NCBI GenBank assembly: GCA_002862085.1
Contig: PKCK01000063.1
Coordinates: forward strand, 62,001 to 126,000
Reading direction: 5' to 3'
Origin: Planctomycetota bacterium
GTDB lineage: Bacteria > Planctomycetota > UBA1135 > GCA-002686595
Length of the DNA stretch: 64,000 nucleotides
A program made the position numbers and the translations under genes. Below, one piece after another: positions 23,630-37,043 of the stretch (position 1 is the stretch's first letter; each line of letters begins with the position of its first letter). The notes under the pieces are model-generated. The model was not told the origin of the DNA and did not search any database. It saw nothing but the letters and a program-made list of their open reading frames with translations.

Positions 23630-26600
23630 TCAACCGCGGGCGGCCGTGACGAATGAGCGGTGGTCGACGTCCGGGATCTCGAGGAGCACGTCGCCAGGGT
23701 CCCCCGCCGTCCCGTACTCCCCGAGCTCCCACACGTGGCGCCGATAGTCACGCACGTCGACGAGGCAAAGGGTCTGGATCGCACGCAGCGTGACGAGCTG
23801 CTCGGTGATGCGCGCGGGGTGGCGAAGCGCGTCGGCGAGCCGCGACTCCGTTGCCGAACGCGCCGCCTCCCGCTCGCTCGAAGGAAGCCTCGCCGCATCG
23901 AAGGCGGAGCGTGCTCCATCGACATCCGCGAGCAGCGTCGCCCAGGCGGCTCTCTTCACCCGGCGCCGTCGCATCGCCTCGGCCCCCACGTCACCTTGGC
24001 CTTGCACTCCGGCTTCGGTCCTGGACGCTTCCAGGAAGACACCGGAGCGGACGGCTGCTCGAAGCACACGCGCGCCGCCATCGGGACTGCGCCACCACTG
24101 CTCGAAGTGAACGCGCAGGCGAAGCGCCAGCAGAGGGCGCCGGCGCGGGAGTCCGAACCGGAGCGCATCGCAAGTCGCTTCCGCCAGCACCTCGGCGCCG
24201 AACAGCCCGGATCGAATCCCGTCGTCGTCAGCGACCACGATCAGCGCGAGCGCGCGCAGCGTTTCGCGATCCTGCTCGATCGGCACGCCCAGCGCGGTGG
24301 AGAGCCTCTCCAGCAGACCGTCGGCGAACTCGCGCTCGAGGTGCCGCAGGCAGCGCGTGGTTCGCGCAGCGTGGGCCGTGAGGCGATCTCGCATGGCCGG
24401 GTCGGCTCCGAGGAACTCCGCATCGGCCGCGACGTGTGGAGTCCGACCATTCCCGTCCGGCGGGCCCTCGAGTCCGGGAAGTGTGAGACCACAGTACTCG
24501 GGGTCGAGGATCGCTCGAAGCTCGGTGGCGGCGAGTGCCCCGGGGCCCCGCATGCGATCGATCTTCCGCGCAGCAGCGTGGAAGTCCGCTTCGCCCCCAG
24601 CGCCACCCGACAGCGCGCGTTCCGGGCGCCGGATGGTGGCGACGGCGCGCGCGAGCGCCCTGCACGCCAAGACGGCGGCGCGGAAGCCGACCGCAGCCAG
24701 CCGGAACGGCGCGAACCAGACCTTCCCGCCCTCGATCCACTCGGCGTAGAGGAGGCGCGGATTGAGGACCCTGGATTCGAGGGGCAGCTCGTGAAGAGGC
24801 GAGGTGCCGAAGACGGTGCGCACGAGCGCCCTCCGATCCTCCCTGAGGCGCGCGAGCACCTCCTCCCCGAAGCGGCACGCCACCTCGGCGTCTCGAGCCG
24901 GCGACGCGTCGAGGAAGTGAAGGGCGGTGAACGCCGTCGTGAGCTGCGCGGCGCGGCCCCTCGCACTCGCGCGGACGGCGTTCTCGTCGGCGTCGCCCTC
25001 GACGCGCGGCGCGGCGCGTCCGAGCCAGGCGTCGTAGCGAGTCCGCTCCTCCGGCGCGGCACGATCGAGCTCGGAGAGCGGGATGGCGTGCGCGTTGTAG
25101 TCCACGATCAAGCGGGCCGAGCGGCTGGACAGGGCTCGGGTGATCGAGTGGAACCACAGATACGGTCCCCTGATGAACGCGCGCCTGCGCTCGAGGTCGA
25201 GGCCCCGGAGCGTTCGTCGCATCGAAGCGTCGACGCGCCCCGAGTGACCGATCATGCGCTGCAGTGCGAGGTTGCCGAGGAGCTGGCTCGTCGCACGCGT
25301 GTCCGAGTGCACGAGAAGTGCGCCATCGAGCAGATCGCGGTAGAGCATCACGGAGCGAGCCACCGCGTCGAAGCCGACGTCTTCGGAAGGTGGTGAGACA
25401 CCGGCGGTCATGAAGCGATCGAGGCCGCCGAGGAAGCGCGCCACGTCCTCCTCGTGCCGCTCGGAGGCGAGGGTGCCCTCGCGCAGGATCCTCTCGGGCC
25501 TGAAGACTCTTCCTCCAAGCAGCGCGGCGTCCATCTCCCGTGCCCGCGCCTTGATGCTCTCGGTCAGGTGCAGGAACTGGGCTCGGGCGACCTGCTCGTG
25601 AAACACCGTCGCGTCCCTCGCCAGTCGTTGCAGCCAGGTGCCGATCCCGAGGAACGCGAGGCAGATGGAGCCGAGCACCACCAGGACGACGCCGGTCAGC
25701 CGCTTCACCACGTTGAAGACGTCGAGCACGAAGCCCCTCAAGCCGCTCAGATCTCGCGCTGCGCCCTGGCTCAGCGCCTCTGCGTCCTCGCCGGGCGCTG
25801 CCTGAGACGCCTCCGTCAGCAACACCGCGTCATCGGGATCGAGACCGAATCCGCGGAGAAGAAGCAGGAGCAGCAAATAAGCGCCGCCGATGGCCAGCAG
25901 CCTCACGGCAGGCCTCGCAGACCGCGCCACCAGCGTCGAGCCGACACGCCCGACCAGCTCCCCGGGCGTCAGGGTGCCCCGCAGGTCGCCCCACCAGAGA
26001 ATGCCTCGATGGAGCGCTGCGGCCGAGCGCGCTGCGCTTCTGAGGACGCGCGCAGCGAGGCGACGATCGGGGAGATGGCTCGCCTCCGCGGGGACCCACC
26101 GGCCCACGAGGGGCGCGCGACTCAGCGGCGAGCGCGAGATGATCCTCGCGCCCCTCGCCAACCGCGCCACGGCGTCGGGGCCGATCCGGGCCGTGACCTC
26201 CTCGCTGCGTATGCTCGAGAGCGTGTCGAGGAGGCCCTCCGCGATCGGTAGACCGGCCCTCCTCGCCGCGCGGGCGTCCTGGCGCGGACCGACGTCTGGA
26301 ACCTGCTCCGTGGCGGCCGCTCGGAGGCATCTCAGGCGCCCGGCGGCGAGCTCCTCACGCTCATCCGCAGCCATGGAATCCAGCGCCTGAGCGAAGAGGC
26401 CGTCGAGCACGCTTCGTACGTTCAGGAGGCGCGACCGGACGGTCGAAGAGCGCTCGCGTGCCTCCCTGCGTTCAGCAGGAGTGGGGAAGACCAGCGTCTC
26501 CCCCATGAGGAGGCGTGCGTTCTGACGAACGATGCGATCGAGTCCCCGGAGGAGGAAGTTCAGCGCACGGTAGAGCCGGATCACCGGGAGCAGCAGCCGC

Positions 26601-27766
26601 AGTGAGCGAGCCAGCTTCTGAACTCGGAGAGCCTTGAGCAGCGGCGCCAGCTCTGCTGAATTGGCGTTGATCGCGAACAGGCCGAACGGAATCGCGGGAA
26701 GGAGATCCGTGAGGACGTGTCGCTTCAGCCAGGACGGATTGAACCCGAGGTGCGCCGCCTTCACGAGGAAGTCCACGACGAGGAAGGCGCAGACCGCGGT
26801 GTCCGTCCACAGGAGCCAGCTGGATGAGCCGTACCAGATCGATGCGAAGAGCAGGCCGATCACCAGCACGATCGCGAGGAGGACCATGCGGTCCCAGAGC
26901 ATGACTCTGCGGCGGCCGAACGCCTTCTCCAGCCGGACCTGAAGCAGCAGCTCCAGTCGTTCGACCTCCAGCCTCCTCATTCGACGGAGCAATCGCCGCC
27001 TGGGGCCGCGCATACCGCCATCACGCGCGCGCTCCACGTGCTGAACGTGCCAGTCCAGAGCGCGACGCGCTTCCCCGAGCAGGCGTACGCCGACCCGATC
27101 CTCGACCTCGAGGGCCACGACGAGTGTCTCGTCCGCGTGATCGACGAGGCGCCCGGCCCAACCCGCGCGAACATCGGGATCGGGAGGTGCATCCTCGACG
27201 GCACGGCTGAATTGCAGGCGCAGCGCCTTCTGGACCCGGAGCGCTTCCTCGACGACGGTCCGGCGATCCGGCTGCTCCGAAGGCCCGATTCGCCCTGCGC
27301 GCCCCTCCACGTGAGAGCGGAGCTCCTCCGTGGCGAGGAGGGAATCGAAGAGGCGATCTCGGAGCCCAGAGGTCCCCTCACCTCGATCGTCCGCGGAGCG
27401 AAGCTGGTGGGCTTCGTCGGCCAGCCGTTCGCGCTGGCGCAAGGTCTCGCACAGAAGGTGGGCGGACAGCGCCTCGGCGTGACCTGCGGCCTCCACCAGG
27501 CCAGAGCGCTGCAGCTGCTCCATCCAGCCGAGCGTCACCGGAAGCACTGGGTGGGCTTCAGGCTCCCCTTCGATGAGCGCACTGCGGCACTCCGCGTCCA
27601 GCAGGCGCCGCTCGAACGCGCAGAGGCGCGCTGCGGCCTCCGGCCCGCCGAGACGAGAACGGGCCACCGCGAGCTCGCGCAGCTCCGCCTCCAGCTCGGG
27701 CAGCACACCCTCCAGGGCGACTTGCACCCTTTCGAGGGCGGGATCTCGGGGTTCGGGGTGAGCCAC
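23630..27766 (-). CDS. Giant membrane protein with voltage-sensor/ion-channel-like segment, unknown function
   Basis: About 1378 aa from a GTG at 27766. Residues 1-288 are helical and charged (many E/R/L, coiled-coil-like). A hydrophobic block follows (about 293-400), with two membrane helices, an acidic segment (TDTAVCAFLVVDFLVKAA) and a helix rich in regularly spaced Arg/Lys (ALRVQKLARSLRLLLPVIRL), resembling S1-S4 of voltage-gated channels, although no pore filter is visible. Two further membrane helices lie near 622-640 and 690-712. About 650 soluble residues with no recognised domain complete the protein. A longer frame runs upstream to 28834 but is antisense to the divergent gene. GGGAG 11 nt before the GTG is a weak ribosome site. 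It shares a 213-bp upstream region with the gene at 27980. Confidence 0.65.
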   Translation of the reverse strand: MAHPEPRDPALERVQVALEGVLPELEAELRELAVARSRLGGPEAAARLCAFERRLLDAECRSALIEGEPEAHPVLPVTLGWMEQLQRSGLVEAAGHAEALSAHLLCETLRQRERLADEAHQLRSADDRGEGTSGLRDRLFDSLLATEELRSHVEGRAGRIGPSEQPDRRTVVEEALRVQKALRLQFSRAVEDAPPDPDVRAGWAGRLVDHADETLVVALEVEDRVGVRLLGEARRALDWHVQHVERARDGGMRGPRRRLLRRMRRLEVERLELLLQVRLEKAFGRRRVMLWDRMVLLAIVLVIGLLFASIWYGSSSWLLWTDTAVCAFLVVDFLVKAAHLGFNPSWLKRHVLTDLLPAIPFGLFAINANSAELAPLLKALRVQKLARSLRLLLPVIRLYRALNFLLRGLDRIVRQNARLLMGETLVFPTPAERREARERSSTVRSRLLNVRSVLDGLFAQALDSMAADEREELAAGRLRCLRAAATEQVPDVGPRQDARAARRAGLPIAEGLLDTLSSIRSEEVTARIGPDAVARLARGARIISRSPLSRAPLVGRWVPAEASHLPDRRLAARVLRSAARSAAALHRGILWWGDLRGTLTPGELVGRVGSTLVARSARPAVRLLAIGGAYLLLLLLLRGFGLDPDDAVLLTEASQAAPGEDAEALSQGAARDLSGLRGFVLDVFNVVKRLTGVVLVVLGSICLAFLGIGTWLQRLARDATVFHEQVARAQFLHLTESIKARAREMDAALLGGRVFRPERILREGTLASERHEEDVARFLGGLDRFMTAGVSPPSEDVGFDAVARSVMLYRDLLDGALLVHSDTRATSQLLGNLALQRMIGHSGRVDASMRRTLRGLDLERRRAFIRGPYLWFHSITRALSSRSARLIVDYNAHAIPLSELDRAAPEERTRYDAWLGRAAPRVEGDADENAVRASARGRAAQLTTAFTALHFLDASPARDAEVACRFGEEVLARLREDRRALVRTVFGTSPLHELPLESRVLNPRLLYAEWIEGGKVWFAPFRLAAVGFRAAVLACRALARAVATIRRPERALSGGAGGEADFHAAARKIDRMRGPGALAATELRAILDPEYCGLTLPGLEGPPDGNGRTPHVAADAEFLGADPAMRDRLTAHAARTTRCLRHLEREFADGLLERLSTALGVPIEQDRETLRALALIVVADDDGIRSGLFGAEVLAEATCDALRFGLPRRRPLLALRLRVHFEQWWRSPDGGARVLRAAVRSGVFLEASRTEAGVQGQGDVGAEAMRRRRVKRAAWATLLADVDGARSAFDAARLPSSEREAARSATESRLADALRHPARITEQLVTLRAIQTLCLVDVRDYRRHVWELGEYGTAGDPGDVLLEIPDVDHRSFVTAARG

Positions 27767-27979
27767 GGTGCAGAAGTCTCCCGAGCGGACCGGATCCTCG
27801 ATGCGCGATTCAGCGGAATCCTTGCGCGATCGAACGATCAGCCTCCATTCGCGGAAGCCAAACCACCCTCGAATGGATCCATCGTCCGCGCGTAGGCCGC
27901 TAGGATCCCGGAGCAGAGCCGCGCGAGAGGCTCCCGGTGCCCCCGCCGGCAATACCTCCTCCCGTCCTCCACAGATGCC

Positions 27980-28753
27980 ATGACAGACGCCCCGACGAGC
28001 TCGGAATCGAGCCAGCCAAGCGCCGCGAAGTCCCTTCGGAAGGAGTCCGTCTGGGAGGTCTATTACCCGTTCAACGCGGATCAGGACAAGGACGCCGTCC
28101 CGGTGGCCTCCTTCCCCATGATCATCTACTTCTGGCCGTCGCTGGTCACCTTCCTCGTGTGCGGCGTCATCCAGCTGATCGGCGGCGGACCAGTCGGTGA
28201 GGAGGGGTCGTTCACCGGCTCCACCCTCGGGTGGTGGGCGACGGGCGCGCTCGCGTTCAACCTGATGATCATCGTGACCGACCTGGATCAGAAGAAGTTC
28301 ACGATCTTCATCCTCGTCTTGCTTCTGGCCGCGCTCGGGGCCTACGTCGGCAAGCTCCAGGGGTGGGGCGTGATCGGTCTGATCGGCGGCTGGTTCGGCG
28401 GGCTCGAGATCTACTACAGCACCCACACGTACTTCATCGTGGGCTTCTTCCTGGCGCTCTTCTTCGTGGTCGGGATGACGACGCCGCGATTCAACTACTG
28501 GCGCCTGGAGCCCAACGAGTTCGTCCACTACATCCAGCCCTGGGGACGCGACCAGAGCATTCCGCGCCTCGGGAGCACGGTGAGCAGGGAGGTTCCTGAC
28601 GTGCTGGAGCTCATCTTGACGTTCGGCGGTGGGACGATCGTGATCAAACGAGAAGGCCAGGTGGTGGCACGCATCGAGCACGTTCCCTTCCTGGGGAAAC
28701 GCATGAAGTCGATCGAAAGACTGCTCGGCGTCACGCGGGTCCAGCAATCCTGA
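27980..28753 (+). CDS. Five-helix membrane protein, unknown function
   Basis: A 257-aa inner-membrane protein. After about 45 polar residues (WEVYYPFNADQDKD) come predicted helices at about 47-68, 83-101, 107-124, 129-143 and 151-167. A cytoplasmic-type domain of about 85 residues follows (FNYWRLEPNEFVHYIQPWGR, then LILTFGGGTIVIKREGQVVARIEHVPFLGKRM, quoted in parts). The tail resembles a small beta-domain. I do not recognise a family. It is divergent from the giant channel-like gene and 37 nt upstream of the M18 peptidase. Confidence 0.75.
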   Translation: MTDAPTSSESSQPSAAKSLRKESVWEVYYPFNADQDKDAVPVASFPMIIYFWPSLVTFLVCGVIQLIGGGPVGEEGSFTGSTLGWWATGALAFNLMIIVTDLDQKKFTIFILVLLLAALGAYVGKLQGWGVIGLIGGWFGGLEIYYSTHTYFIVGFFLALFFVVGMTTPRFNYWRLEPNEFVHYIQPWGRDQSIPRLGSTVSREVPDVLELILTFGGGTIVIKREGQVVARIEHVPFLGKRMKSIERLLGVTRVQQS

Positions 28754-28790
28754 CCAGCTCAGCTCAGTCCTCATCCACGCCTCCCCGTTC

Positions 28791-30077
28791 ATGTCCGATC
28801 TTCGCGCCGTCGCCCTGGGTCTCGCCGACTTCATCGACGCCTCACCAAGCCCCTATCACGCGTGCGCAGCGGCCGCCGCGCGTCTGGAGGCGTCGGGTTT
28901 CTGCCGCCTGGACGAGCGGGCGGCGTGGGACGCGATCCCCGAACGTGCGTATCTCCAGCGCGGGGGATCGCTCATGGCATGGGCGCTCCCGGCCGATGCC
29001 GACCCGGCGGAGGGTTTCCGGCTCGTGGGTGCCCACACGGACAGCCCCAACCTGCGCGTCAAGCCCCGCCCTGACACGGGCGGCGCGGGGTTTCGGCAGG
29101 TGGGGGTCGAGGTCTACGGCGGCGTTCTCCTCAACTCCTGGCTGGACCGCGACCTCGGCCTCTCCGGGCGCGCATGGATCGACGAGGGCAACGGGCTCGA
29201 GGAGCGGCTCTTCCTCGTCCAGCGGCCCGTCATGCGGGTCCCCCAGCTGGCCATCCATCTGGACCGCGCCATCAGCCAGGAGGGTTTGAAGCTGGATCGG
29301 CAGCAGCACATGGCCCCCATCACGGCTGTGGGCGAGCGCCGCGAGGGCGCGTTCCGCGAGCTCCTCGCCGCGGAGATCGACTGCGACGTCGCGGCGATCA
29401 AGTCATGGGACGCCATGCTCCACGACTTGACTCCGTCGCGACTCATCGGAGTCGACGAGGACATGCTCGCGGCCCCGCGCCTCGACAACCTCTGCAGCGC
29501 CTACCTCGGGCTGGAAGCGGTGATCGCCGCCGCGGAGACGGGCCCCCGACGGGGCGTGGCCGTCACGCTCTTCGACCACGAGGAGGTGGGCAGCGGGAGC
29601 CGCGGGGGCGCGGACGGGCCGATCCTCGGCGACGTGCTCGAGCGACTCGTGCTGGCGCGCGGAGGTTCGCGCGAGGATTTCCTCCGGTGCCTCTCGGCGT
29701 CTCTGTGCATCTCCGCCGACATGGCCCACGCCGTTCACCCGAACTACCGCGAGCGTCATGAGCCGGATCACCACGTCCACCTCGGTGCGGGGCCCGTCAT
29801 CAAGATCAACGCCAACCAGCGATACGCCACCGAAGCGGAGACCGAGGGCTTCTTCCAGGCGGCCTGCGAGCGGGCTGGGGTGCCGTATCAGAAGTGGGTC
29901 ATGCGAACCGACATGGCCTGCGGGTCCACCATCGGCCCCCTGACCGCGTCGCAGCACGGGATACGCACGGTGGACGTCGGATGCGCTCAGCTGTCGATGC
30001 ACAGCGCCCGCGAACTCTGCAGCAGGGACGACCCTGGATTCATGCTTGCGGCTCTCGTGGAGAGCCTCGTCGGCTGA
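28791..30077 (+). CDS. apeB: M18 family aminopeptidase
   Basis: A 428-aa cytoplasmic zinc aminopeptidase of the aspartyl-aminopeptidase/M18 family, acting on peptides with acidic or neutral N-termini. Metal-binding and catalytic motifs are VGAHTDSPNLRVKP, the APRLDNLCSAY segment, LFDHEEVGSGSRGGA with the two Glu residues, and ISADMAHAVHPNY. Near the C-terminus are DMACGSTIGP and DVGCAQLSMHSARE. Length and motif order are typical. It converges on the ATP-grasp gene with 14 bp between stops. Confidence 0.93.
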   Translation: MSDLRAVALGLADFIDASPSPYHACAAAAARLEASGFCRLDERAAWDAIPERAYLQRGGSLMAWALPADADPAEGFRLVGAHTDSPNLRVKPRPDTGGAGFRQVGVEVYGGVLLNSWLDRDLGLSGRAWIDEGNGLEERLFLVQRPVMRVPQLAIHLDRAISQEGLKLDRQQHMAPITAVGERREGAFRELLAAEIDCDVAAIKSWDAMLHDLTPSRLIGVDEDMLAAPRLDNLCSAYLGLEAVIAAAETGPRRGVAVTLFDHEEVGSGSRGGADGPILGDVLERLVLARGGSREDFLRCLSASLCISADMAHAVHPNYRERHEPDHHVHLGAGPVIKINANQRYATEAETEGFFQAACERAGVPYQKWVMRTDMACGSTIGPLTASQHGIRTVDVGCAQLSMHSARELCSRDDPGFMLAALVESLVG

Positions 30078-30091
30078 AGCGCTGATGGCCG

Positions 30092-31018
30092 TCAGCGCGG
30101 GTGTTCCAGCCCGACCAGCTCGGGCGCGCACTGTCCGAAGTAGTACGTGTAGCGCGCATTGACCTCGGAGACAGCGTGCAGGCGGCGCGTGCCGGCCTCG
30201 TCGCGCCAGGTGAACGCGTCGATGCCCACGGGTCCGAAATACCCGATGTCGACGAGGCGCTCGGCGACTCGCTGAAAGGCGCGACGCAGCGCGTCCTGGA
30301 CGTCTGGAGCAGCTTTTGCCGGCGAGGTTTGACGGGGACCGGGCCGCGCGCTCCCGGCATGGCGAACCGCCGGCGCCGACTGGATCGCACCGTTCGATCC
30401 GATGTGTCCATGGATCGCGAACTCCTCCTCGAGGTCGAGCATCGGCGCGATGTCGATCGGACCGCTGGCCAGACGCTCCCTGACGAAGGCGGTCACGGGC
30501 GCCGACGGCGTCTCGGCGACGATGCGATCGCGACCGGCGGCGCACAGTGACCCGCGCAGGATCCATGCCGGAGGCTTTCCTGAAGGCCGCGGCGGCGCGG
30601 TGTCCTCCATCGCGGCGAGGACGTCCTCGGCCGAACCGCACGTCACGCGCCCGCGAAGCGGGGCCGCGTCGATGAAGGTCTCACGCGCGTTCGCCCGGAT
30701 CAGCGCTTCCAGGTCAGGGGCTCGAGGCAGCGTGAGGCCACGCGCGCGGAGGAGCTCCAGCGCGTGAGGAGTCGGAGACCACGCGAACCCCCTGCGCGCC
30801 AGGCCGGAAGGTCCGCGCCCGCCATCGGCGTCGCAGTCGCTGTGCTGCGTCACCTCCCTCCCGAGCAGGGAGCGAGCGGCACCCGCACGTACGGCTTCGG
30901 GGATCGGTTCCACCCTCCTCCAGTCCAGCCCTGCTCGCAGCGCGGCCAGCTCCGCCTCCGCCTCGAGCCAAAGGCACCAGCCCCCGGCCCATCGCGGGCG
31001 TGTCGCCCACCAGATCAT
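30092..31018 (-). CDS. ATP-grasp superfamily protein, unassigned ligase
   Basis: A 308-aa protein. The C-terminal part has the ATP-grasp metal-binding layout VGIDAFTWRDE...HAVSEVNARYT, in which the Asp, Glu and Asn ligate Mg-ATP in carboxylate-amine ligases. A central PAWILRGSL segment may hold the nucleotide-binding residues. The N-terminal 90 residues are not recognised. Starts with ATG 31018, which overlaps the DUF455 stop as ATGA, so it is translationally coupled as the third gene of an operon. The substrate is unknown; ATP-dependent ligation of a carboxylate to an amine is the family expectation. Confidence 0.7.
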   Translation of the reverse strand: MIWWATRPRWAGGWCLWLEAEAELAALRAGLDWRRVEPIPEAVRAGAARSLLGREVTQHSDCDADGGRGPSGLARRGFAWSPTPHALELLRARGLTLPRAPDLEALIRANARETFIDAAPLRGRVTCGSAEDVLAAMEDTAPPRPSGKPPAWILRGSLCAAGRDRIVAETPSAPVTAFVRERLASGPIDIAPMLDLEEEFAIHGHIGSNGAIQSAPAVRHAGSARPGPRQTSPAKAAPDVQDALRRAFQRVAERLVDIGYFGPVGIDAFTWRDEAGTRRLHAVSEVNARYTYYFGQCAPELVGLEHPR

Positions 31019-31869
31019 CGGTCCCGTGCAGGCCGGACGCTCCGAGGTGACCGTCTCGTCGTCTTCGACCCTGCAGCGGCGAGCCCATCGAGGAACGCCT
31101 CGGACAACCCGGCGCGCCGACGCTGCGGACGCTGGAGGGGGTGCCCTCTCATCACCGATGGGGTCAACGGAGCGGGAAGCGCCGCAGCCCATCGGTCGAA
31201 GTCAGGACCGCTATCCGGGTTGCCTCCATCGAAGTGCGTGAACCAGCGCGCCGCGAAGCGGACGTGCGCGACTTCTTCTCGGCCAACACGCTCGACCACC
31301 CGCGCGGATTCCGGGTCCCCGGCGGCCTCGAACTGCCCAGAGAACCGCTCTGCGTGCTCGATGTTGGCGCCCTCGAAGCCAAGCCCCAGCAAGGCGACGA
31401 ACATCCTCGGGTCCGTGCACTGCTTCGCCTTCACCCAGAACCAGTCACGAACCGGGTGAGCGCCGTAGTCCGCGCCGTGCGCCCGCAGTCGGTCCCGGTA
31501 GAGCCGCCCGTGCCGGAGCTCGTCGTCCACGAGACGGAGAAGGCCACGCCGGAACTCGGGTGGAGCGTCACCGAACAACAGATACGCCCATGCGAAGAGC
31601 TCCGCCGCCTGGATCTCGTGATGGAGGAAGAGGTGGAGCAGGCGCACGCGCGCGTCGGCGGTCTTGAGCGCTCCGGCTCTCGGGATACGCTCCGCCCTCT
31701 CACCGAGCTCCACACCCGTTGGGCGCCCGGGCTCCATGGCGAGGACGACTTCACGCGGAGGCGCATGGGCGGGGTCCATGAGCTCTGGCCGCGGCCCGGG
31801 CGCCAGCTTGCTCTCGGTGGTCACGGCGCGGATGAGGGCGACGCACCACTCCTCTGCCGAATCGATCAT
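31015..31869 (-). CDS. DUF455 ferritin-like di-iron protein
   Basis: A 284-aa all-helical protein of the DUF455 family, related to ferritin-like oxygenases such as the tRNA hydroxylase MiaE. Candidate iron ligands are in place: HHEIQAAE (Glu 85/90), DDELRH (Glu 117, His 120), GANIEH (Glu 171 region) and REEVAH (Glu 199, His 202). That gives two E..ExxH halves, so a di-iron site looks intact. It is preceded by a SUI1-like gene and followed by an ATP-grasp gene, both with ATGA overlaps. An oxygenase or hydroxylase role is inferred; the substrate is unknown. Confidence 0.85.
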   Translation of the reverse strand: MIDSAEEWCVALIRAVTTESKLAPGPRPELMDPAHAPPREVVLAMEPGRPTGVELGERAERIPRAGALKTADARVRLLHLFLHHEIQAAELFAWAYLLFGDAPPEFRRGLLRLVDDELRHGRLYRDRLRAHGADYGAHPVRDWFWVKAKQCTDPRMFVALLGLGFEGANIEHAERFSGQFEAAGDPESARVVERVGREEVAHVRFAARWFTHFDGGNPDSGPDFDRWAAALPAPLTPSVMRGHPLQRPQRRRAGLSEAFLDGLAAAGSKTTRRSPRSVRPARDR

Positions 31870-32270
31870 GACGTCCCGCGCTTCACCTTCACGCGACAGG
31901 AGGTCTCGAGGTACGACGCGACCCGATCCACCTGGCGGCCCTGGACCACCACCGACCCTGCTTCGATCCTCGCGCCCGCGCCGAGGGCCCGGCCGCAGTC
32001 GCGGGCGATTTGCCTGAGAGCCGCGTCGTCGGGCGCTTCCGAGAGCCAGCGCGCCACTGTCACCTCCTTCCCCCCGCGGCCCTTCCTCTCGAAGCGGACC
32101 TCGACCACCCCACCGTCGCAGGCGTCGCTCGAGACGATCTCCTCCGCCGGGCTCGCCGGATTCGTGGCGCTCTCCCCGGATCGCGGCAGCGAGGCGAACG
32201 GGTTGCTGGTCAATCCGCCGACCGGGCCACCCAGATCGATCCAGGCCTTCTTGTCGCTCTTGCGTCCCAT
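31866..32270 (-). CDS. SUI1/eIF1-like translation factor (YciH family)
   Basis: A 134-aa protein. Residues 55-130 form a SUI1 domain, with VEVRFERKGRGGKEVTVARW (family GRGGKxVT), LRQIARDCGRALGAGA and VVVQGRQVDRVASYL (family IQGDxRxxVxxxL). The first 50 residues are low-complexity linker starting MGRKSDKKAWIDLG, as in bacterial YciH proteins. Bacterial YciH can bind the 30S P-site region and is thought to tune initiation. First gene of a coupled three-gene operon (ATGA overlap with DUF455). Confidence 0.85.
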   Translation of the reverse strand: MGRKSDKKAWIDLGGPVGGLTSNPFASLPRSGESATNPASPAEEIVSSDACDGGVVEVRFERKGRGGKEVTVARWLSEAPDDAALRQIARDCGRALGAGARIEAGSVVVQGRQVDRVASYLETSCRVKVKRGTS

Positions 32271-33681: not shown

Positions 33682-34281
33682 GTGTCCGATGTCACGAGAC
33701 TTCTCGACGCGCTCCGAGCGGGTGACGCCGGGGCCAACGACGAGCTGATCGCCACTGTCTACGGGGAGCTACGACGGCTCGCCGCTGGACAGCTCCGCCA
33801 TGAGCGTGCGCAGACGCTCGACGCCACGGCGCTCGTCCACGAGGCATGGATGCGTATCGCCGGGTCGGCGGAGACGCCCGGCGGCGCCGTCCCCGGGTTC
33901 CGCAATCGAGCGCATTTCCTCGGCGCTGCGGCGGAGGCCATGCGGCGCATCCTGATCGAACGAGCCAGGAGGCGACGCAGTCTCAAGCGCGGGGGCGGGC
34001 ACGCGAGGTCGGATCTCGAGCCCGATGCGATCGTGGCGCTGCCACCCTCGGTCGACCTCCTGGCCCTGGACGACGCGCTCGACCGACTCGCGATCGAGGC
34101 GCCGGAGAAGGCGAAACTGGTCGAACTCCGCTTCTTCGCGGGGCTCTCGATCGTCGAGGCCGCCGAGGTCCTGGGCGTTTCCCGCGCGACCGCCGACCGG
34201 AACTGGGCTCTCGCGCGCGCCTGGCTCTTCCGGGATCTCCATGACCCGACGCAAGGACCCGGGGTCCCCGAGGCGCGATGA
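33682..34281 (+). CDS. Planctomycete-type ECF sigma factor
   Basis: A 199-aa RNA polymerase sigma factor of the PF07638 (Sigma70_ECF) group, which is expanded in planctomycetes and usually paired with Ser/Thr kinases. Region 2 is near residues 20-100 (ELRRLAAGQLRHERAQTLDA, TALVHEAWMRIAG, RNRAHFLGAAAEAMRRILIE), with a basic RARRRRSLKRGGG stretch. Region 4 is near 130-185 (LVELRFFAGLSIVEAAEVLG, VSRATADRNWALARAWL). The gene begins with GTG and its stop overlaps the next gene's ATG (ATGA), so sigma factor and kinase are made together. Target promoters are unknown. Confidence 0.93.
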   Translation: MSDVTRLLDALRAGDAGANDELIATVYGELRRLAAGQLRHERAQTLDATALVHEAWMRIAGSAETPGGAVPGFRNRAHFLGAAAEAMRRILIERARRRRSLKRGGGHARSDLEPDAIVALPPSVDLLALDDALDRLAIEAPEKAKLVELRFFAGLSIVEAAEVLGVSRATADRNWALARAWLFRDLHDPTQGPGVPEAR

Positions 34282-37043
34282 ATCGCGATCCCTCGTCGGG
34301 TTCCGCCTCGCAGGAGCCGGGAGACGCTCCGCTGCGCGCCGTGGAGGCGCTCTTCCACGGCGCCCTGGAGCGTCCAGTTGGGGCCATGCGGGACGCTTGG
34401 CTCCGCGCTGCGACCGGAGGGGACGACCCGCTTCTCCTGCAGGTTCAGGAGCTCCTCGATGCGCACGAAACGGCCACCGGTTTCCTCGAGCGCGGGCCGC
34501 TGCTCGATTTCGGGTCCCTGCTCGACGATCCAGGGTCTGCCTTCCTCGATGTCGATGTGGGCTCCATCGTCGGCCCCTACCGCCTCGTGGAACGCCTCGG
34601 CGAAGGCGGCTTCGGAGTGGTTTATCGCGCAGAGCAGAGCGAGCCCGTTCGGCGCGACGTGGCGTTCAAGGTGATCAAGCTGGGAATGGACACCCGGCAA
34701 GTGATCGCGCGCTTCGAGACGGAGCGCCAGGCGCTCGCACGCCTCGATCACCCCTCGATCGCCCGCGTGCTCGACGCCGGACAGACCGACGGCGGACGGC
34801 CGTACTTCGTGATGGATCTCGTGCCAGGGATCGATCTCGCCCGCTACTGCGACAACGCCTGCCTGGGTGTCAGGCGACGCTGCGAGCTGTTCCTGGAGCT
34901 CTGCGCTGCGGTCCAGCACGCCCACCAGCGGGGAATCATCCACAGGGACCTGAAGCCCTCAAACGTCCTCGTCACGGAGAGCGGCGGGCGGGCTCTGCCG
35001 AAGGTCATCGACTTCGGGATCGCGAAGGCCGCGACGGACGAGTTCGACCCCCAGGACACCTTGAGGACCGAGCTGGGGCAGGTCATCGGAACGCCGGTGT
35101 ACATGAGCCCGGAACAGGCGCTCGGCCACGGCGACATCGACACGAGGTCCGATGTCTACTCGCTCGGCGTGATCCTGTACGAACTCCTGGCCGGTCGGCC
35201 GCCGCTCGAAGCGACCGAGCTCAGGGAGCGCGCCCTCGCCGGTGAACTGGCGATGTTCCTCGCCGATCACGAGGCCGACCTGCCCTCCTCCGCGCTCCTG
35301 GCCAGCGAGAACGCCACGGAGCTCGCTCGCTGTCGTGGCGGGTCCGTCGCGGAGATTCGCGCCACGATCCGGGGCGACCTCGACTTCATCGCACTGCAAG
35401 CGCTGGCCTTCGAGCGCGACCGCCGGTACGAATCCGCCGCGAGCCTGGCGCGAGACATCGAGCATGCTCTCGCCAATCGTCCGATCCAGGCGCGGCCACC
35501 GACCCTCACGTACCGACTACGGAAGTTCCTCCGACGCCATCGGATCGCTGCGGGCGCCTTCGCCGCGGTGGCCTCGGCCCTCCTGATCGGGCTCGTCGTC
35601 GCGTTCGACGCGCAGCGCGCGAGGCAGAGCCAGGCAGACGTCATCACCTCGGTCTTCACCGAGGCCACTCGGATGGACATCGGTGCGAGGAGCGCGCGAG
35701 ACGTTCAGCGTGAGGCGCAGGAGGCGTTCGGCGAAGCCCACCCGTTCGTCGTGGATGCCCTCTCGACACACGCCGCCCGACTCGAGCGGTCAGGCGACCT
35801 CGACGGCGCATTGGAAGCCCGGCGGCGCACGCTCGAGGTCGCCGAGCGCGCCCATGGGGCCAGATCTCCGGAGGTGAAGTTCGCCCGAAGTGCCCTGGGA
35901 ATGCTCCTGGCACGGGTCGGCGAGCCAGTGGCCGCGCAGGAGCAGCTCAACGCTGCGATCAACCTCGACGGCGACCTCTCACCGCCGGGGACGCCGTTCC
36001 TCAACGCCGCGCGCCTCGAGGTGGCCGCCCTCGCCCTGGACGAAGGGGACCTCGTCCGCGCGGCGATCCTCGCTGAATCAGCCGACGACATCGCCAAGGC
36101 GCTCGCGCCCAGCGATCGCCGCATGCGCGCGGACGCTCTCGAGATGCTGATCGACGTGCGCATCCGGGCCGGAGACGATGCCGGTGCGCGCCGCGCATGG
36201 AGCGAGCTCTTCCGGGTCCTCGAGCGCCTCTCCACCCCCCAGAGCATCGCTCTTCCGCGAGAGCGGATCCGATGTGGTCGCTGGCTGGCGAGCATCGGGA
36301 AGTCCGGCGAAGCCGCGCTCGAGCTGCGCAGGGCGATGGACGGGCTCGAACGGATCGAGAACGCCCCCCGTGAGCTCGAGTACAGCGCGGTCAAGGGATT
36401 CAACGAGGTCGCCTCGAGCGCGCGTGTCCCCCGCAACGTCCTGGACGAGGCGATGGCCCGTGAGTTCGAGCTCGTCAGGCGGATCTTCGAGCGAGGAACC
36501 GGGCCCTACCACGACGCACTTCGCTCGCTCGCGGAGCGGCACAAGGAGCGCGGCGAAGCGGCGCTCGAGCTCTCGCGGTTGCTCGACCTGCACGACTCCC
36601 TGACACGGGTCAGCGGATCGGAGGGCGCGCGCCGGCAACTCGCGCGTCAGCTCGGGGAGCGGGCCGTGGCTCTTCGAGTCGCAGACGGCCTCGACGAGGA
36701 CGACTTCCGCGTCGGCTGTGAAGCGGTCGCGGTCGCGCTCCAGGTGGATCCGCAGGACCCGGCGCTGGAGCTCGCGCAGATCGAGCTGCTCGCGCGTGCC
36801 GGGGATCGTTTGAAGGTCTTCGCCCTCGTGGAGGAGATGGAGAAGAAGCCGTCGTTCGACGAGCGTCATCCCGTCTTCCTGGCGGTCAAGGCCGTCGCCT
36901 ACACCTCCTCCCCCGTCCACGGCAGGAAAGCGAACGCCTATCTCGAGGAGGCCTTGACCCGTTCCCTGCAGCCGGAGTTCATGGCGGTACCAGGCCTCCA
37001 GAAGACACTCGGCTGGGCTCGCGGGATCGTGGTGGACAGCTGA
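34278..37043 (+). CDS. Transmembrane Ser/Thr protein kinase with TPR-like sensor region
   Basis: A 921-aa Hanks-type kinase. The kinase domain (about 101-390) has the Gly loop LGEGGFGVV, Lys 131, HRDLKPSN with catalytic Asp 224, DFG at 245-247 and TPVYMSPEQ in the activation segment. A single membrane helix lies near 425-447 (AAGAFAAVASALLIGLVVAF). The extracytoplasmic part has alpha-helical TPR-like repeats (ERSGDLDGALEARRRTLEVA and similar). The N-terminal 100 residues form a linker typical of planctomycete kinases. Coupled by ATGA to the ECF sigma factor, it probably controls that factor by phosphorylation, as in known ECF/kinase pairs; the signal is unknown. Confidence 0.92.
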   Translation: MNRDPSSGSASQEPGDAPLRAVEALFHGALERPVGAMRDAWLRAATGGDDPLLLQVQELLDAHETATGFLERGPLLDFGSLLDDPGSAFLDVDVGSIVGPYRLVERLGEGGFGVVYRAEQSEPVRRDVAFKVIKLGMDTRQVIARFETERQALARLDHPSIARVLDAGQTDGGRPYFVMDLVPGIDLARYCDNACLGVRRRCELFLELCAAVQHAHQRGIIHRDLKPSNVLVTESGGRALPKVIDFGIAKAATDEFDPQDTLRTELGQVIGTPVYMSPEQALGHGDIDTRSDVYSLGVILYELLAGRPPLEATELRERALAGELAMFLADHEADLPSSALLASENATELARCRGGSVAEIRATIRGDLDFIALQALAFERDRRYESAASLARDIEHALANRPIQARPPTLTYRLRKFLRRHRIAAGAFAAVASALLIGLVVAFDAQRARQSQADVITSVFTEATRMDIGARSARDVQREAQEAFGEAHPFVVDALSTHAARLERSGDLDGALEARRRTLEVAERAHGARSPEVKFARSALGMLLARVGEPVAAQEQLNAAINLDGDLSPPGTPFLNAARLEVAALALDEGDLVRAAILAESADDIAKALAPSDRRMRADALEMLIDVRIRAGDDAGARRAWSELFRVLERLSTPQSIALPRERIRCGRWLASIGKSGEAALELRRAMDGLERIENAPRELEYSAVKGFNEVASSARVPRNVLDEAMAREFELVRRIFERGTGPYHDALRSLAERHKERGEAALELSRLLDLHDSLTRVSGSEGARRQLARQLGERAVALRVADGLDEDDFRVGCEAVAVALQVDPQDPALELAQIELLARAGDRLKVFALVEEMEKKPSFDERHPVFLAVKAVAYTSSPVHGRKANAYLEEALTRSLQPEFMAVPGLQKTLGWARGIVVDS

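Follow-up and report, generated by a model that had tools for sequence, protein, structure and literature searches.

The question raised by this locus is which of three overlapping genes belong together, and what they do. The window, by which we mean the whole stretch of 64,000 nucleotides that was analysed from a planctomycete contig, holds on its minus strand genes for a SUI1/YciH-like protein, a DUF455 protein and an ATP-grasp ligase (Table 1). A sequence-only reading of the window took all three as one operon and suggested, as an inference, a substrate associated with the ribosome or tRNA. We argue that the distribution of these genes across the Planctomycetota supports a smaller unit.

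Table 1. Genes and gene overlaps of the locus, in window positions
Feature	Position	Strand	Basis
SUI1/YciH-like protein	31866..32270	-	134 aa; PF01253 E 1.1e-7
DUF455 ferritin-like di-iron protein (putative), first gene of conserved pair	31015..31869	-	284 aa; PF04305 E 1.3e-41
ATP-grasp ligase, uncurated family, second gene of conserved pair	30092..31018	-	308 aa; family profile, fold, conserved residues
ATGA overlap, SUI1 stop / DUF455 start	31866..31869	-	junction DNA
ATGA overlap, DUF455 stop / ATP-grasp start	31015..31018	-	junction DNA; recurs in homologous pairs

The gene layout itself is as first described, to the base. The junction DNA was checked and reads ...GTC ATGA and ...CCG ATGA, and both 4-base overlaps are real. 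That the three products are made in fixed proportion does not follow from this layout, since overlapping genes do not reveal the ratio of their products. Overlaps of 4 bases are common in bacterial operons, so a single one means little. Several features surround the three genes. An M18 aminopeptidase gene (28791-30077) is convergent with the ligase gene at a distance of 14 bases, and is found at that site in relatives of genus g1 only. An ECF sigma factor gene overlaps one for a Ser/Thr protein kinase with TPR repeats (33682-37043), and a similar layout is seen near the pair locus in genus g1. There is also a minus-strand frame of 1734 aa (23630-28834) that has no Pfam match and overlaps plus-strand frames. 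It is probably, at least in part, a mechanical frame of high-GC DNA.

The distribution was examined in 392 Planctomycetota genomes, many of them drafts, with the 61 genomes of the host's order as a subset. Four weak DUF455 matches (family f52), 2 DUF455 matches below cut-off and 2 weak ligase matches were excluded from the tally by hand. Across the phylum the ATP-grasp gene is found in 96 genomes, DUF455 in 116 and both in 94 (Fisher 4e-66, uncorrected for kinship). Kinship was handled only by counting families. Both genes are present in 25 families, the ATP-grasp gene alone in 1 and DUF455 alone in 2, which gives p 3e-20 if there are 101 families, the highest family label seen. Within the order the ATP-grasp gene is present in 35 genomes, and all 32 with DUF455 over the cut-off have it (32/32). 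The pair has a wide range, is mostly single-copy and occurs in about a quarter of the sampled planctomycete genomes, complete ones included. The relatives found are planctomycetes wherever they have names, Poly30 and Pla86 among them.

There are exceptions. A ligase is present without a detected DUF455 in two genomes (G223 and G020). Genomes with DUF455 only belong mostly to family f17, which has a divergent subfamily, then to f71 with copies of a second type, and then to contig ends. The neighbours of the f17 genes (L130-L137), which have no such ligase, vary and include a methyltransferase and an aldehyde dehydrogenase-like gene. In Pla86 (G024) there is an additional ATP-grasp gene that has no DUF455 partner, and two overlapping genes for ABC-transporter permeases come after it (L056:6650-9591).

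The two genes are also neighbours. Leaving aside family f32, they are adjacent in 63 of the 67 genomes that have both, across 23 families, and several of the exceptions are contig ends (L141, L143, L144). Neighbouring pairs are on the same strand throughout, with the DUF455 gene first. In f32 the 27 genomes with the ATP-grasp gene all have DUF455 as well, at a distant locus. Both genes are kept there though unlinked, so the association is not hitch-hiking alone.

The form of the link is equally regular. A 4-base overlap (ATGA or GTGA) between the DUF455 stop and the start of the ligase gene is present in 35 of the 44 adjacent pairs with separate genes that were examined, and this recurrence across many families puts the overlap beyond chance. 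The two are fused into a single reading frame in at least 13 genomes of five families: f25, f26, f69, f75 and f1 (G018, G422). In a quick DUF455 tree the fusions of the first four families form one clade. Those of f1 fall in the other half of the tree, so at least two fusion events are likely. We conclude from the sequences that fusion probably arose two or more times, although 25 of the 64 inner branches of this tree are open and the number of events is approximate. Co-occurrence, constant order and strand, overlap and fusion establish in the sequence record that the putative di-iron enzyme and the ligase are linked, as had been proposed, and the residues of both putative active sites are intact.

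The third gene behaves differently. The window SUI1 gene is the only one detected in its genome. Its product scores 32.7 bits against the SUI1 domain (PF01253, gathering cut-off 25.5) and 43.3 bits against the YciH equivalog (TIGR01158), which requires 111.65. If SUI1 faced the ribosome, the pair might modify a macromolecule linked to the ribosome or tRNA by RimK-like tailing and hydroxylation; the sequence-only reading had suggested an oxidative or ligative modification of such a target. Among the sampled genomes of genus g1, those with DUF455 do have the SUI1 gene directly upstream of it (here with an overlap), and in G019 and G021 SUI1 is likewise next to the pair. These genomes all belong to family f1. 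Across the phylum SUI1 is found in 74 of 96 genomes with the ligase and in 70 of 296 without it, an uncorrected odds ratio of about 11. This is far looser than the association of DUF455 with the ligase, and it may reflect lineage and genome size. Within the order there is no association at all (24/35 with ATP-grasp vs 17/26 without, Fisher p = 1.0). SUI1 is undetectable in 22 of the 96 ligase genomes of the phylum and 11 of the 35 of the order, and it was not found in the fetched pair neighbourhoods outside f1. In OFTM34 (L037) a SUI1 gene stands beside DUF455 without the ligase. On this distribution SUI1 is rejected as an obligatory third component. SUI1 is a lineage-limited operon companion of the pair and not part of it, and its presence does not support a ribosome or tRNA target. 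The sequence-only reading had proposed that the link be judged by whether the three genes are neighbours in other genomes; by that measure DUF455 and the ATP-grasp gene are partners and SUI1 falls outside the unit. A RimK-type model reaches only E 0.05, in 1 of 40 diverse ligase sequences, and the closest ligases use amino acids or peptides. We consider modification of such a macromolecule quite improbable.

What can be said of the ligase? It has no Pfam match and no NCBIfam match above cut-off (best 9.7 bits). A phmmer match to a fragment of an Xaa-Pro dipeptidase is probably a chance one, repeated by no family profile. In the PDB, the family profile finds BesA (4e-6), DcsG (5e-5), PGM1 (5e-5) and a peptide ligase from Streptomyces. 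An AF2 model built from seven sequences (pLDDT 72.6, weak in its N-terminal third) has 340 Foldseek matches at E<=0.001 and the fold of an ATP-grasp enzyme, and the top places in VIA go to PGM1 (3wvr), the Streptomyces enzyme and BesA. By profile and model, the nearest solved relatives appear to be amino-acid and peptide ligases (BesA, PGM1), distant ones at 13-17% identity in structure alignments. The ATP/metal-site residues are conserved as D267 and an E/D-x-N-x-R motif (E285, which may be D or E, N287 and R289). Among the 40 sequences D267 and R289 are invariant and N287 is kept in over 90%. Before the glycine-rich loop, where a lysine is usual, most f1 members, this one included, have an arginine and others a lysine. 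The BesA equivalog model (NF042917) does not match the window ligase at E<=1 and weakly matches 3 of the 40 (best 3.2e-6). There are weak NCBIfam matches to LdmS among them as well.

One can imagine from the fold that the pair builds a ribosomal peptide product of a graspetide- or pheganomycin-like kind from a precursor encoded elsewhere. PGM1, the nearest fold, links small core peptides with an amino acid that is non-proteinogenic (PMC8939145). However, no short reading frame that could be a precursor peptide is conserved near the pair beyond close relatives in 54 genomes, and the wide, mostly single-copy range is unlike that of a secondary-metabolite cluster. No conserved third gene was found either, as the neighbour genes that cluster across 62 loci all belong to generic families (sulfatase, DUF1501, protein kinase, ABC transporter). 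With neither a conserved third gene nor a precursor beside the pair, a free metabolite is a likelier substrate than a clustered ribosomal peptide, and we regard the peptide product as rather improbable. Carriage of the ligase by viruses was searched for and not found. Plasmids yielded no ligase, and DUF455 in two Neisseria records only, which by their length are likely to be chromosomes filed as plasmids.

The DUF455 protein is a full member of PF04305 by the curated score (143.2 bits, cut-off 34.3). Its AF2 model (pLDDT 89) is a ferritin-like four-helix bundle. Six residues, E90, E117, H120, E166, E199 and H202, are invariant in 28 homologues and follow the order E, ExxH, E, ExxH; their assignment as iron ligands is by pattern and putative. 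The same order is found among the ligands of ADO, the aldehyde-deformylating oxygenase. The label of a MiaE-type enzyme given at first is not supported, as no MiaE match was found in Pfam at E<=1 or among the PDB matches listed; such an absence is no proof against it. All Foldseek matches of the DUF455 model have E above 0.001, and in the VIA ranking ADO stands level with Dps-like and bacterioferritin folds, at Z 13-15. Ferritin-like folds also serve in iron storage or peroxide detoxification, so the oxygenase chemistry is only predicted.

It is worth considering that DUF455 is a ferritin for iron storage or protection from peroxide and that the ATP-grasp enzyme produces a small molecule that binds iron. 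The link would then be iron homeostasis and not consecutive catalysis. Ferritin, bacterioferritin and Dps-like folds do stand level with ADO in the structure list, but the alignment of DUF455 with ADO and VlmB spans about 187-190 residues (190 for VlmB), against about 145 with ferritins. In part of f32 a ferrochelatase gene lies near the ligase gene (3 of 10 f32 loci), and in two f32 genomes a HemN-type radical SAM gene overlaps it; these arrangements are at L111:4153-7519, L113:4307-7719 and L125:999-2051. This makes a heme or iron link possible there, as a lead only, and such neighbours are seen in f32 only. We find iron homeostasis an unlikely basis for the pair.

We argue, with a probability of roughly 0.6, that DUF455 and the ATP-grasp ligase form a two-enzyme module of the Planctomycetota: a ligase and a di-iron oxygenase that successively transform one small substrate derived from an amino acid. 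The catalysis, the order of the steps and the nature of the substrate are what we infer. By analogy with BesA and PGM1, the ligase would use ATP to activate a carboxylate as an acyl-phosphate and then join it to an amine, and its substrate may be an amino acid or short peptide. DUF455, with a predicted carboxylate-bridged di-iron site, would use O2 to hydroxylate, N-oxygenate or cleave the product of the ligase or its precursor. The two enzymes would work in sequence, and since natural fusions exist they are probably in contact. The unit looks like an undescribed step of a chemical pathway. More tentatively, and below even odds, the new ligase family and the ligase-linked DUF455 may together make a cofactor or metabolite, derived from an amino acid and unknown from other bacteria, by an undescribed pathway widespread in the Planctomycetota.

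DUF455 has long been listed as a domain of unknown function. Our literature search found no function for it in titles or the opening lines of abstracts, no joint mention with ATP-grasp and no mention of PF04305; COG2833 came up only on another subject. If the more tentative reading above is true, it would be the first biochemical role for DUF455. At the very least, the tight pairing supplies DUF455 with a concrete and testable partner, a single uncurated ligase family, and it narrows the chemistry to a ligation and a probable O2-dependent step. For structure and assay, the fusions found in nature can serve as ready constructs. The breadth of the pair, which extends to complete genomes, makes deletion and metabolomics feasible in a laboratory strain.

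The known systems can be compared in turn. BesA (L-propargylglycine-L-glutamate ligase, 8yi6) is the best profile match. The folds align at Z 14.6 over 248 residues (rmsd 4.7) with a similar G-x-x-G-x-F/D metal-site region, but identity is 15% and no member of the ligase family qualifies as a BesA equivalog. BesA acts in an amino-acid pathway of Streptomyces, in which the di-iron enzyme, BesC, belongs to another fold class. PGM1 (pheganomycin peptide ligase, 3wvq/3wvr) has the top fold (Z 15.8, 250 residues, rmsd 4.6, 14% identity), but here there is a widespread pair and not a cluster, with no precursor peptide detected nearby. ADO and the azoxy synthase VlmB share the ferritin-like di-iron fold with DUF455 (Z 14.6 and 13.3), at 15-18% identity and with no substrate known to be shared. 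Within PF04305 the DUF455 proteins linked to the ligase form a subfamily distinct from those of f17 and f71 and from second copies, all of which have no such ligase adjoining. The SUI1 protein resembles YciH and other bacterial SUI1 proteins in its SUI1 domain. It differs in falling below the NCBIfam equivalog cut-off and in an extra N-terminal motif of the LTHNPFAxL type, GGLTSNPFASL in the window, that the SUI1 proteins encoded next to DUF455, with or without the ligase, have in common.
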